Assembly (NCBI GenBank): GCA_026395405.1
Contig: JAPLYU010000001.1
Span: 316,696-380,695, forward strand
Direction of reading: 5' to 3'
DNA length: 64,000 nt
Origin: Candidatus Saccharimonadota bacterium
GTDB taxonomy: Bacteria; Patescibacteriota; Saccharimonadia; Saccharimonadales; Saccharimonadaceae
Shown: positions 2,626 through 9,172 of the stretch, piece after piece
Numbering within the stretch: position 1 is the first letter of the stretch
Layout of the letters: each line of letters begins with the position of its first letter
Translations under genes and position numbers: made by a program
Notes under the pieces: generated by a model
The model's database searches: none
What the model was told of the DNA's origin: nothing
What the model saw: the letters and a program-made list of their open reading frames with translations, nothing else

Positions 2626-2654
2626 TTGACCAAACATCACGAATATAGTAGAAT
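2626..2654 (+). promoter_or_regulatory. Promoter of cassette C1
   Basis: TTGACC-N17-TAGAAT; same layout in C2-C5. Confidence 0.7.
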
Positions 2655-2700
2655 ATGCATTAAGTCGTCGAGTATTTTTTAATTTAACTCCGAGGCACAT

Positions 2701-2778
2701 TGACAATCAGATGCTAATTTCATGGGATGGGATTTTTGTATTCAAATTATATTTAATTCGAGAATCCTATCCTATGGG
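2701..2778 (+). ncRNA. Cassette C1 structured leader (5' closing arm plus long leader hairpin)
   Basis: TGACAATCAGATGCT (2701-2715) pairs with 3762-3776; CATGGGATGGGATTTTT / GAGAATCCTATCCTATGGG hairpin. Confidence 0.65.
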
Positions 2779-2805
2779 AAAATGAAACGATTAAGGGAGT
2801 TTACA

Positions 2806-3093
2806 GTGGAAGAGTATCGCTTTATCCTTGGTAAACCCGAGGTAATCGTTCTGGAAAATGGTCGACTTGTCATCAAAGACAGTCTGGCTGTGAGACAGGA
2901 CTGCGAAGAGGTAATATGGCTGGCCAATAGGGACGGCATGGTCCTGATGTCGTTTCCCTTCTACAAGGGGGGGCATCAGCTGAAGCTGGTTGTCTCTCGA
3001 GGCGACAAGTTGGACATGCTTGTACAGCGCATTAATGAAGGACTGTACGAGTTCTCGCCCTTCCCGAACAGCTCACCGTACGCCATCAGGTAA
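2806..3093 (+). CDS. Uncharacterised small protein (cassette gene A1), paralog of 4021-4371; start re-assigned to GTG
   Basis: NGRLVIKD...HQLKLVVSRGDKLDMLVQRI matches A2; GGGAG SD upstream of GTGGAAGAGTATCG aligned with A2 start; the ATG at 2722 lies inside the leader hairpin. Confidence 0.65.
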   Translation: MEEYRFILGKPEVIVLENGRLVIKDSLAVRQDCEEVIWLANRDGMVLMSFPFYKGGHQLKLVVSRGDKLDMLVQRINEGLYEFSPFPNSSPYAIR

Positions 3094-3122
3094 TCCCACA
3101 ACTCCGTGAAAAGGAGAAAATC

Positions 3123-3695
3123 GTGGAACTCGGCAGTGAGGGTAGCTGGATGAGGCACGAACAAGATCTCCGCGACCCCATCACTCTTCCCACCTCAAAG
3201 TTGGTAAGGGAAGACAACCTCGACAGACTCCAGGACATGGGCTTCATCTTCGGCGACTTCGTCGAAGGAAGTGACGAGTACGTACAGTACTCAACATTCC
3301 CTAGGGGGTGGAGCAAAGTTCTGAGCGAAACGGGATACCCGCACAAGCTGTGGTCTCTGGTCGACCCGTCGGGGAACGAAAGAGTCCGTGCGTCCGGTGG
3401 AGATTTCTTTAAGCTTCACTGTGCTACTAGGTTCTACCTCCGAGAGGTGCTGACCCAAGGCGCTAACGCTGTTACGGTTTGGATCATCGACCAAATTACT
3501 GGTCAGCCGACCTACATGTCACAACTCTACCACTATCCACCCTGCTCAGACCGCAACGCCAAACAATGGGACAAGTACGGCGAAGTCGTTTTTACGCCGT
3601 ACGGCTCAGCCTTGGGGTCAGCCTACGATGAGGCGAGGTCTTGGTTGGCAAGATTCCACCCGGAATACCTGAACCCCTGCTCGTACTGGACCTGA
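3123..3695 (+). CDS. Uncharacterised protein (cassette gene B1)
   Basis: 190 aa ORF, SD AAAGGAG, GTG start. Confidence 0.65.
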   Translation: MELGSEGSWMRHEQDLRDPITLPTSKLVREDNLDRLQDMGFIFGDFVEGSDEYVQYSTFPRGWSKVLSETGYPHKLWSLVDPSGNERVRASGGDFFKLHCATRFYLREVLTQGANAVTVWIIDQITGQPTYMSQLYHYPPCSDRNAKQWDKYGEVVFTPYGSALGSAYDEARSWLARFHPEYLNPCSYWT

Positions 3696-3718
3696 CCCGG
3701 CACGGTTACAATATGAAG

Positions 3719-3746
3719 GGTAGCCGGTCGATTAGGACCGGCTACC
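3719..3746 (+). other. Cassette C1 3' hairpin
   Basis: GGTAGCCGGTC-gattag-GACCGGCTACC; T7 run follows after 6 nt. Confidence 0.6.
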
Positions 3747-3777
3747 ATGTGGTTTTTTTCAAGCATCTGGTTGTCAT

Positions 3778-3832
3778 TTCGCTTATTTGAATGCGTATTC
3801 AAACTGATGAGTCCAAAAGGATGAAAAGCGAA
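3778..3832 (+). ncRNA. Type III hammerhead ribozyme HHR1
   Basis: Stem III TTCGCTT/AAGCGAA; H17 = A3785; stem I TTTGAAT-GCGT-ATTCAAA; core CTGATGA; stem II GTCC-AAAA-GGAT; GAAA. Predicted cleavage 3785/3786. Confidence 0.93.
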
Positions 3833-3836
3833 CGGA

Positions 3837-3865
3837 TTGACAAAACATCATATAAATATTACAAT
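3837..3865 (+). promoter_or_regulatory. Promoter of cassette C2
   Basis: TTGACA-N17-TACAAT. Confidence 0.75.
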
Positions 3866-3911
3866 AATAATAACTCGTTGAGTGGTTTTTTGGATTAACT
3901 CCGAGGTACTT

Positions 3912-3987
3912 TGACAAGCAGACATTATTTTCATGGGGTGGGATTTTTTAATTTAACGAAAGTTTAGTTTTAAAATCCTATCCTATG
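3912..3987 (+). ncRNA. Cassette C2 structured leader
   Basis: 5' arm TGACAAGCAGAC pairs with 5190-5200; 16-bp hairpin CATGGGGTGGGATTTT / AAAATCCTATCCTATG. Confidence 0.7.
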
Positions 3988-5120: not shown

Positions 5121-5201
5121 TTCTCCCAAGCGGTGACAGGCAGTCGTTCAGATGAATGACGCCCGCCCCGTCATTCTGTTTCTCTGCGCGTCTGCCTGTC
5201 T

Positions 5202-5256
5202 TTCGCTTTTTTGAATGCGTATTCAAACTGATGAGTCCAAAAGGACGAAAAGCGAA
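5202..5256 (+). ncRNA. Type III hammerhead ribozyme HHR2
   Basis: TTCGCTT / AAGCGAA stem III; H17 = T5209; stem I TTTGAAT-GCGT-ATTCAAA; CTGATGA; GTCC-AAAA-GGAC; GAAA. Confidence 0.93.
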
Positions 5257-5274: not shown

Positions 5275-5303
5275 TTGACAATTTATCGCGTATATGCTAA
5301 AAT
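5275..5303 (+). promoter_or_regulatory. Promoter of cassette C3
   Basis: TTGACA-N17-TAAAAT. Confidence 0.75.
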
Positions 5304-5385
5304 ATAGATAAGCATCGTGTGAGGTTTTTTAAGCACTCCGCGACGCACCTGACAACTCGTTCAAGCACCCCGAAAGGAGCCTGCT

Positions 5386-5799
5386 ATGCCCCCGAGGCCG
5401 AAGATACCGGTGGATTATGACATCACCGTGTATAACCGGGTCGAACCCAACCTCACCAAGGTCAGGGTCAAGTTCGACCAAAGGATCTGCACCGAGCTGA
5501 AGAGGTCGGGCTTTTACCCGGCGAACCTCACTAATGCCGAGCAGATCGACTCCTACGACAGGAAGACTCCTGAGTACAACGGAAAGTTCATGCCGGCCGC
5601 TATGGCTTTGGCTAATGGCCTTCCGGAAGACGGCACCAATGGTGTCCTGAGCGTGGATGCCATCTCGCCGATGATCCTCGAGATTCGCTGCAATTCAGAC
5701 CTGGTCAATATCGGACGATTGGATGACCAGATCGGCAAACTCGTCTGGGAAGTCAACCAAACCGGTTGGCCACCGAGCGATCCGTACGCTTCGGTCTGA
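5386..5799 (+). CDS. Uncharacterised protein (cassette C3 gene)
   Basis: 137 aa ORF, SD AAAGGAG. Confidence 0.65.
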   Translation: MPPRPKIPVDYDITVYNRVEPNLTKVRVKFDQRICTELKRSGFYPANLTNAEQIDSYDRKTPEYNGKFMPAAMALANGLPEDGTNGVLSVDAISPMILEIRCNSDLVNIGRLDDQIGKLVWEVNQTGWPPSDPYASV

Positions 5800-5840: not shown

Positions 5841-5895
5841 CTTGCGGGGATGAACGAGTTGTCAAACTCAATGATTTATAAACTAGTGATTATCT

Positions 5896-6104: not shown

Positions 6105-6180
6105 GCGGGTGTAGCTCAGTTGTTAGAGCGCTTCCTTGCCAAGGAAGAGGTCAGGAGTTAGAGTCTCCTTACCCGCACCA
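6105..6180 (+). tRNA. tRNA-Gly (GCC)
   Basis: Cloverleaf, anticodon loop TTGCCAA, encoded CCA; unusual T-loop TTAGAGT. Confidence 0.93.
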
Positions 6181-6199
6181 AACCATTAGCATTATAGTA
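6160..6199 (+). repeat. 40-bp direct repeat copy 1 (tRNA-Gly 3' end), att-like
   Basis: AGAGTCTCCTTACCCGCACCAAACCATTAGCATTATAGTA; second copy at 7304-7343 with one mismatch. Confidence 0.8.
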
Positions 6200-6994: not shown

Positions 6995-7303
6995 TTACGT
7001 CTAAAAGTATTGCACTAAGAGCCGCTTGAGTGTATCGGGCGGATAGCGCAGCTGATATTTCAGTTGGGTTAGGTCGTCGTATGTAATCCCGGATTCGCCG
7101 TCCTGGTTCGAGACTCGTCCACTGTCTTGCACCACGAAATAAACTCACCTGATGGTGAGATTTTTTCGTGGTCTGATATTGGAATTTTCTAACTCCTGAC
7201 CTCAGAGGGAAGGAGTGAGACCCGCAAGCCTGCGGGTCGCAAGGAAACCTTCCGATGGCAACTGGTTTGCCAGTCGTGAAGTTTCGGGCCCGCGGAACGT
7301 GGG

Positions 7304-7343
7304 AGAGTCTCCTTACCCGCACCAAACCATAAGCATTATAGTA
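7304..7343 (+). repeat. 40-bp direct repeat copy 2 (displaced tRNA-Gly 3' end)
   Basis: 39/40 identity to 6160-6199. Confidence 0.8.
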
Positions 7344-7416: not shown

Positions 7417-7445
7417 TTGACGAATCACTATAATTATCGTACAAT
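7417..7445 (+). promoter_or_regulatory. Promoter of cassette C4
   Basis: TTGACG-N17-TACAAT. Confidence 0.7.
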
Positions 7446-7485: not shown

Positions 7486-7556
7486 TGACAAGCAGATATC
7501 AATTCACAAGGTGGGGCCCCCTTGCTGAACAGTCAGCACGGAGATCTCATCTTGTG
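7486..7556 (+). ncRNA. Cassette C4 structured leader
   Basis: 5' arm TGACAAGCAGA pairs with 8068-8078; hairpin CACAAGGTGGGGCCCC / GGAGATCTCATCTTGTG. Confidence 0.65.
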
Positions 7557-7635: not shown

Positions 7636-7974
7636 ATGGTTGAAAGAAGTGGTAGCGACGAGAACAAAGACCCATTTGTGGTACGTTGGGGGACTTACTT
7701 CTACGGTGAAGCGTATCGGTCGGGGTTTGAAATAGACAATTCCGATCCACGGTCTGTCCAGAAGATACACGACGCAAATTACGCAATGCTAGCGTTTTCG
7801 TTGATCGTCTTCCCCGGCATACTGATTGCCTTCATCTTGTTCGTAGTCTTCGCTGGACGTTCACCATGGTGGGCTCTTTTGTGTATGGCGGCTATACCTG
7901 TGTGGTCGGGGCTTGCGATGCTCGTCGGGTGTGTGCTCGAGTGTGTCCACGAGCTTTGTAAACAGCGAAAGTAG
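7636..7974 (+). CDS. Small membrane protein with two predicted TM segments (cassette C4 gene)
   Basis: 112 aa; YAMLAFSLIVFPGILIAFILFVVFA and WWALLCMAAIPVWSGLAMLVGCVL. Confidence 0.65.
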   Translation: MVERSGSDENKDPFVVRWGTYFYGEAYRSGFEIDNSDPRSVQKIHDANYAMLAFSLIVFPGILIAFILFVVFAGRSPWWALLCMAAIPVWSGLAMLVGCVLECVHELCKQRK

Positions 7975-8046: not shown

Positions 8047-8080
8047 GCCTCTCTGTATTTGTAAATGTCTGCTTGTTATA

Positions 8081-8133
8081 TCGCTTAAATGAATGCGTAT
8101 TCATTCTGACGAGTCCCAAAGGACGAAAAGCGA
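8081..8133 (+). ncRNA. Type III hammerhead ribozyme HHR3
   Basis: TCGCTT/AGCGA stem III; H17 = A8087; stem I AATGAAT-GCGT-ATTCATT (compensatory change); CTGACGA; GTCC-CAAA-GGAC; GAAA. Confidence 0.92.
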
Positions 8134-8139
8134 ATCAAT

Positions 8140-8337
8140 CTAGGCCAAGAACCTCGAATAGTCTTTTAGCGTTTCGGTCGGGTAGCGCAGGCCGTGCTTT
8201 AGGCAAGTGAGTTCTTCAATCGAAACGCCCTCGGACTCTGTTTTGCGACTCCACTTGCGTACTAATATATTAGGAGCACTAGGGCGACGATTTGGACTTC
8301 TTCTGGTGTTCGAGAGTTGTCCCTTTCCGTGCACCAA
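8140..8337 (-). CDS. Small ORF family, copy B (65 aa), function unknown
   Basis: ELTCLKHGLRYPTETLK tail homologous to the minus-strand ORF at about 7013-7137, with mostly synonymous differences. Confidence 0.45.
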   Translation of the reverse strand: MVHGKGQLSNTRRSPNRRPSAPNILVRKWSRKTESEGVSIEELTCLKHGLRYPTETLKDYSRFLA

Positions 8338-8383: not shown

Positions 8384-8412
8384 TTGACAGATAACTATAA
8401 TTATCGTAGAAT
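8384..8412 (+). promoter_or_regulatory. Promoter of cassette C5
   Basis: TTGACA-N17-TAGAAT. Confidence 0.75.
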
Positions 8413-8449: not shown

Positions 8450-8522
8450 ATTGACAAGCAGATATCAATTCACATGGTGGGACCTCTGGATTCAATAGCG
8501 AATTTTGGGGTCTCATCGTGTG
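8450..8522 (+). ncRNA. Cassette C5 structured leader
   Basis: 5' arm ATTGACAAGCAGAT pairs with 9001-9014; 16-bp hairpin CACATGGTGGGACCTC / GGGGTCTCATCGTGTG. Confidence 0.7.
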
Positions 8523-8924: not shown

Positions 8925-9172
8925 TCGTCTCGACACCTTTTCGAAAGGCAGTCTGGTCACAATTCAGACCAGACTGCCTGGCGGCTCTGTGTCATTGATA
9001 ATCTGCTTGTCAATTTTATTTAAAAATTATTTATAAAACTGTTTAATAAAGACTGAAGAAAAACTTATAATTAAATAATATTTTTCTATTTTTGCCAAAT
9101 AGCTTGACTCTGGAAACATAAGGGTATTAAATATAGGCATTAGAGTTTTAAGATAAACATGGGGAAATTAAC

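Follow-up and report, generated by a model that had tools for sequence, protein, structure and literature searches.

Hammerhead ribozymes and gene-spanning helices in small transcription cassettes of a Saccharimonadales genome

Five cassettes in the window

The window, a stretch of 64,000 nucleotides from the genome of a Candidatus Saccharimonadota bacterium, contains five small cassettes, C1 to C5, all on the forward strand (Table 1). Each has a promoter and two distant, complementary arms, which are termed the 5' arm and the 3' arm here. In C1, C2 and C4 a type III hammerhead ribozyme begins after a gap of 1 nt from the 3' arm, while two of the five cassettes, C3 and C5, carry the helix without a ribozyme. 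Considered together with the related loci described below, the sequences argue strongly for this cassette structure.

Table 1. Position of the cassette elements within the window.
Cassette	Element	Position	Strand	Remarks
C1	Promoter	2626-2654	+	TTGACC-17-TAGAAT, 10/12 matches
C1	5' hairpin H1	2665-2693	+	P1 TCG/CGA, UC bulge, GAG/CTC
C1	5' arm	2701-2715	+	long-range helix
C1	Coding part	2806-3695	+	two ORFs without Pfam family
C1	ORFs	2806-3093 and 3123-3695	+	first ORF with GTG start, SD AAGGGAG
C1	Strong hairpin	3719-3746	+	in the gap from ORF to 3' arm; resembles a terminator with a distant U tract
C1	3' arm	3762-3776	+	
C1	Type III hammerhead ribozyme	3778-3832	+	predicted cleavage after A3785
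C2	Promoter	3837-3865	+	TTGACA-17-TACAAT, 4 bases past the C1 ribozyme
C2	5' hairpin H1	3874-3905	+	CTCG-TT-GAG/CTC-CGAG
C2	5' arm	3912-3923	+	one mismatch with its 3' arm
C2	3' arm	5190-5200	+	
C2	Type III hammerhead ribozyme	5202-5256	+	predicted cleavage after U5209
C3	Promoter	5275-5303	+	TTGACA-17-TAAAAT
C3	5' arm	5350-5363	+	
C3	ORF	5386-5799	+	137 aa, without Pfam family
C3	3' arm	5851-5864	+	no ribozyme after it
C4	Promoter	7417-7445	+	TTGACG-17-TACAAT
C4	5' arm	7486-7499	+	
C4	ORF	7636-7974	+	112 aa, hydrophobic
C4	3' arm	8065-8078	+	
C4	Type III hammerhead ribozyme	8080-8134	+	predicted cleavage after A8087
C5	Promoter	8384-8412	+	TTGACA-17-TAGAAT
C5	5' arm	8450-8463	+	
C5	3' arm	9001-9014	+	no ribozyme after it

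Of the six best-matching promoters in the region, five belong to the five cassettes. The start of the 5' arm was located 32-88 nt downstream of a -10 box in a set of 43 loci; this box has at most two mismatches at 43/43 loci and is an exact TATAAT at 20/43, compared to 2% of random positions. The interval between promoter and arm usually holds a hairpin, H1. In its TGACAAG type, H1 consists of the helix P1, a U-rich bulge of 1-3 nt and a following GAG/CUC, and P1 covaries, with column 10/52 being C-G in 12 sequences, U-A in 9 and broken in none. H1 lies at the very 5' end with a recurrent U bulge-GAG/CUC, and it presumably resembles HIV TAR and the put RNA of phage HK022. H1 might act in a put-like manner and make RNA polymerase ignore terminators, with the ribozyme replacing termination and the helix arising as the tethered 5' end meets the emerging 3' arm. 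The terminator-like hairpin within C1, upstream of the 3' arm, would fit such antitermination. However, H1 differs from one cassette type to another; we consider this explanation very unlikely.

Most of the cassette ORFs, which are short, match no family in Pfam or PHROG. Searches with the C1 and C2 proteins found no phage relatives, and no known toxin families were found among the cassette ORFs. The Thoeris inhibitor Tad4 (PF25186) was matched by 3/34 cassette proteins in one scan and by the protein of locus L077 in another, with E values of 6.5e-24 (L077), 4.9e-23 (L069) and 3.4e-10 (the third cassette of L376); Tad4-related proteins are found in phages of the Gram-positive hosts Bacillus, Mycobacterium and Listeria. 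Anti-defence genes in the putative self-cleaving cassettes of an episymbiont are unexpected. Other matches were to the RNA polymerase alpha C-terminal domain and to DUF2807. In addition, the hammerhead at L062 is preceded by a ThiF/E1-like gene (PF00899, E 7e-22) and a small ubiquitin-like ORF, and that at L067 by an E1-like ORF, recognized by eye, and likewise a small ubiquitin-like ORF; at L062 a local hairpin replaces the long-range helix.

The cassette ORFs further differ in base composition. Their GC3 is 0.68, while the longest ORF in the flanks, which represents the genome only roughly, has 0.48 (40 loci, Wilcoxon p=4e-8), and it is nearly always the cassette value that is higher, e.g. 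in C1 and C4 of the window. Because of this excess and the Tad4-type inhibitors, end-sealed, ribozyme-finished mRNAs could be imagined to be delivered by the episymbiont to a bacterial host of higher GC and translated there, some of them into inhibitors of host defence. Ordinary horizontal transfer would explain both hints equally well; we regard such delivery as extremely unlikely.

Several other elements lie around the cassettes. A 40-base repeat of the 3' end of tRNA-Gly (98%) at 6160-6199 and 7304-7343 flanks an insert of 1.1 kb that contains an ORF of 256 aa; this may be a small island located at an attachment site in a tRNA gene. The segments at 7029-7130, before C4, and 8168-8335, between C4 and C5, resemble tRNA fragments and end in a T-arm-like GTTCGAG...CACCA. 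The ORF at 1740-2504 (254 aa), which adjoins the cassettes and is kept in genome G156, contains a proline/threonine-rich linker, and its C-terminal region gives a very weak match to phage endolysins.

The long-range helix and its compensatory changes

The preliminary description of this DNA had proposed a long-range helix that closes each transcript and is maintained by compensatory change; the ribozyme adjoining the 3' arm, the promoter and H1 are additions to that proposal. Checked base by base, the arms of C1 form the 15 pairs with one G·U that had been described, and C3 and C5 each form 14 perfect pairs, which a repeat search also recovered. The additional inner helix of C3 is likewise present, between CCCCG at 5368-5372 and CGGGG at 5845-5849. 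In C4, the proposed pairing of 7486-7496 with 8068-8078 is correct and extends further, to 14 pairs with 2 G·U. The proposal held only in part for C2, where 10 Watson-Crick pairs do form, but with one internal A-C mismatch; this is the weakest of the five window helices, and a scan for perfect helices prefers another pairing. Compared to dinucleotide-shuffled arms, the pairing of the arms reaches z=6.1 in C1 and z=5.2 in C4.

At each ribozyme locus, the 22 bases preceding the ribozyme were matched against a maximum of 2.5 kb of upstream sequence, with shuffled arms as the null. Within the family, pairing with z>=3 was observed in 34/97 loci and in 0.9% of the shuffled arms, and the upstream distance of the 5' arm in the significant loci is about 380-1800 nt. 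About 60% of the family loci have no significant perfect helix, a group that includes truncated contigs and loci with a local hairpin instead. Among the usable loci from other families, orders and classes, 4/21 reach p=0.01, and GTDB records yielded further cases, including some in Dojkabacteria (L175) and Shapirobacteria (L217, L208). Helices on four viral contigs (L307, L263, L312 and L336) are probably repeated terminator-like hairpins; they were left out of the count because their arms share a GTGTCTT element and some are near-palindromic.

The arms vary in sequence between cassettes while their pairing is kept, as had been noted for the window; the wider set of loci makes this covariation far stronger than the window alone could reveal. 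The 44 loci contain 38 distinct arm pairs, and among them every one of the four Watson-Crick combinations occurs at each of the first 12 positions of the helix; as these pairs had been selected for pairing, the statistical weight is carried by the shuffle tests. The C3-like cassettes have swapped arms, TGACAACTCGTTC/GAACGAGTTGTCA in the genome studied here and TGACAATCCGTTC/GAACGGATTGTCA in G156, and compensatory change is also seen among those of G000, G156 and G169. Similarly, L175 and the loci L408/L421, which belong to distant Patescibacteria, have nearly identical leaders with different but matched arms (TAGCACAGGATGAA and TAGCGTGTGGTGA, respectively). When whole transcripts were folded without constraint, the helix was present in 35/41, with a mean pair probability of 0.80. 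The long-range helix that pairs the ends is real, and the swapped arms, its position between the -10 box with the 5' hairpin and the 3' ribozyme, and the free-energy folding all support the view that it closes the transcript and is preserved by compensatory change.

At the DNA level, a pair such as TTGACAAGCAGA..TCTGCTTGTCAA resembles a terminal inverted repeat, and the cassettes recur in the genome, as the ends of a DNA transposon would. Unlike transposon ends, the arms are not common to the copies (38 distinct pairs), nor do they form the borders of the unit, since promoter and H1 precede the 5' arm and the ribozyme follows the 3' arm, which is why we do not take them for such ends. Repeats between cassettes moreover reach the ribozyme end, G·U pairs are tolerated and no transposase is seen in the cassettes, so that arms serving a transposon and not an RNA structure are scarcely credible. 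For integron attC sites, as a further possibility, inspection by eye showed no matching core site.

The hammerhead ribozyme and a candidate switch

The ribozymes score below the gathering cut-off of the Rfam hammerhead model RF00008, with 34.5-39.5 bits in the window and 43.1 bits for the best match genome-wide compared to the required 48.5 bits. In the alignments, loop II is shorter and loop I longer than in the Rfam consensus. The catalytic core (CUGANGA / GAAA / NUH) is intact in eight aligned copies from the genome, and stems I and II are closed while stem III is open, as in type III hammerheads. A search model built from these eight copies (R1) detects 9 such hammerheads in the 855-kb genome and gives matches in 73/395 genomes of the same family and 41/384 genomes across the phylum. 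Strong covariation was found in all three stems of 91 aligned copies, with two-sided changes in 353 cells compared to 84 in shuffles and a score of 0.651 compared to 0.218, in an alignment that had been fitted to the model structure. In a pattern scan of GTDB species, the matches listed come mainly from Patescibacteria, among them Saccharibacteria, Shapirobacteria, Nomurabacteria and Kaiserbacteria. IMG/VR viral contigs (L256-L335) contain at least 120 stretches with the same hammerhead core, most of which lack a long-range helix.

The helix can occur without a ribozyme, which C3 and C5 either lost or never had; the C3-like cassettes of G156 (L042) and G169 (L044) do possess one.

At eight loci (L041, L045, L057, L066, L074, L087 and two in L198) a local strand, about 75 nt upstream, is also able to pair with the 3' arm, and in seven of them this competitor can also base-pair with the 5' strand of hammerhead stem III, either entirely or in part. 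The competitor strands are evident from the alignment as a 25-bp hairpin, in which wobble pairs are kept at columns 11, 16, 17 and 20 (in 7, 7, 6 and 6 of the 8 sequences). The same columns form Watson-Crick pairs in the arm's pairing with its own 5' arm. Hence, the competitor looks tuned: local but weaker, it could give way to the perfect 5' arm, which would free the ribozyme. In such a transcript the G·U-weakened strand would hold the 3' arm and, at seven loci, the stem III strand as well, and pairing with the 5' arm could then turn cleavage on; we infer that the seven loci with both pairings may contain a built-in cleavage switch. The six transcripts without the helix in the minimum-energy fold are exactly L041, L045, L074, L087 and both L198 loci, as competition would predict; all but one of these exceptions had been inspected or have a known local competitor of the 3' arm.

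The A5 loci contain the hairpin SL-C, whose inner part lies, at L066 for example, within the 93 bases immediately upstream of the predicted cleavage site. Its inner loop, AACCUNGG..CACG..CGUG..GUUUUC, is kept beyond the needs of pairing and could bind a ligand or a protein.

A putative panhandle mRNA and its relation to known systems

On balance, we think it fairly probable that each cassette is a transcription unit of its own that gives rise to a ribozyme-finished, non-covalently closed 'panhandle' mRNA. A sigma-70-type promoter would start the RNA a few bases upstream of H1, which would be followed by the 5' arm, at least one ORF, in many cases a strong hairpin, and the 3' arm. The type III hammerhead, 0-3 nt past the 3' arm, would cleave the nascent RNA in the cell and leave a 3' end predicted to lie 7-9 nt beyond the 3' arm; hammerhead chemistry gives a 2',3'-cyclic phosphate at this end. 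The arms would pair over 9-18 bp, so that both ends meet beside hammerhead stem III, and the most likely outcome, we infer, would be an mRNA protected from exonucleases at its 5' and 3' ends. At about a fifth of the loci the helix would cover the Shine-Dalgarno sequence and may delay or limit translation. By analogy, the effects of the helix on stability and translation are guesses. The terminator-like hairpin of C1, the Rfam scores below cut-off, the two of five cassettes with a helix and no ribozyme and the family loci that show no significant perfect helix count against the panhandle reading.

A 3' ribozyme and a helix joining the ends could alternatively yield a natural circular mRNA, by ribozyme cleavage and end-to-end ligation. 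Engineered circular RNAs of the Tornado type have a self-cleaving ribozyme beside an end-joining stem and need ribozymes at both ends as well as RtcB. The cassettes share with them the self-cleaving ribozyme beside a stem uniting both ends, and like most bacteria the genome has a gene for a ThpR-type 2'-5' ligase. Unlike in Tornado RNA, a second, 5' ribozyme was not found, the leaders containing no Rfam ribozyme. RtcB is missing from 60/60 relatives in a search whose control worked, which makes circularization by RtcB unlikely, and no match to the RNA_ligase family was found in the genome itself. As the promoter lies directly upstream, at the short distance from -10 box to 5' arm given above, the 5' end should moreover be a triphosphate, which argues against covalent circles. 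Taken together, we judge circular mRNAs to be highly unlikely.

Instead of protecting a panhandle mRNA, the pairing might mainly serve fold-back silencing as in hok: a stable, untranslated mRNA whose 3' end masks the start site and is opened later. For the mRNAs of hok (hok/sok) and Staphylococcus aureus icaR, pairing between the 5' and 3' UTRs has been described (PMC3868564). The cassettes, whose folded transcripts have a high predicted stability, share with these precedents that the 3' end of the mRNA folds onto the 5' leader and sometimes onto the Shine-Dalgarno sequence, which lies within the 5' arm at 9/44 loci (at L038, for example, TGTAAGGAGAGT precedes the ATG). Unlike in hok and icaR, most arms leave the start site uncovered, the start region lying 30-200 nt downstream of the 5' arm in most loci. 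A metastable 5' hairpin that holds the arm, as in hok, was likewise not found as a general feature, since a leader competitor for the 5' arm was significant in 1/43 leaders (mean z -0.2); at two loci of the genome, L007 and L040, a leader strand able to hold the 5' arm was seen by eye. Pairing between the 3' tail left by cleavage and the leader gave a mean z of 0.07, with no locus at z>=2.5. We consider silencing unlikely to be the main purpose of the helix. Finally, hok and icaR are each a single gene that has one arm sequence and no ribozyme, while dozens of cassettes with different arms are present here.

Descriptions of hammerheads in Saccharibacteria or Patescibacteria, or of a hammerhead together with 5'-3' mRNA pairing, were not found in the open-access literature. 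The closest relatives are the prophage hammerheads described next to small ORFs (PMC3088659, with a review in PMC6155905). It was proposed that they divide long transcripts into mRNAs the length of a gene, and the review (PMC6155905) states the role of prokaryotic hammerheads as an open question. The cassettes share with the prophage hammerheads a core beside small, poorly conserved genes and the presence of several copies per genome. They differ in having their own promoter and 5' hairpin and in residing in Patescibacteria chromosomes, and a long-range helix between the 5' and 3' ends adjoining the ribozyme is not described in the passages of PMC3088659 and PMC6155905 covered here. Prokaryotic hammerheads thus gain a partner here, a gene-spanning helix with dozens of covarying examples, which suggests 3' end formation coupled to the pairing of both ends as a possible role for the ribozyme. 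Hammerheads and 5'-3' mRNA pairing are each known separately; the cassettes combine them, and the panhandle reading would make this a natural case of a closed, ribozyme-finished mRNA in bacteria.
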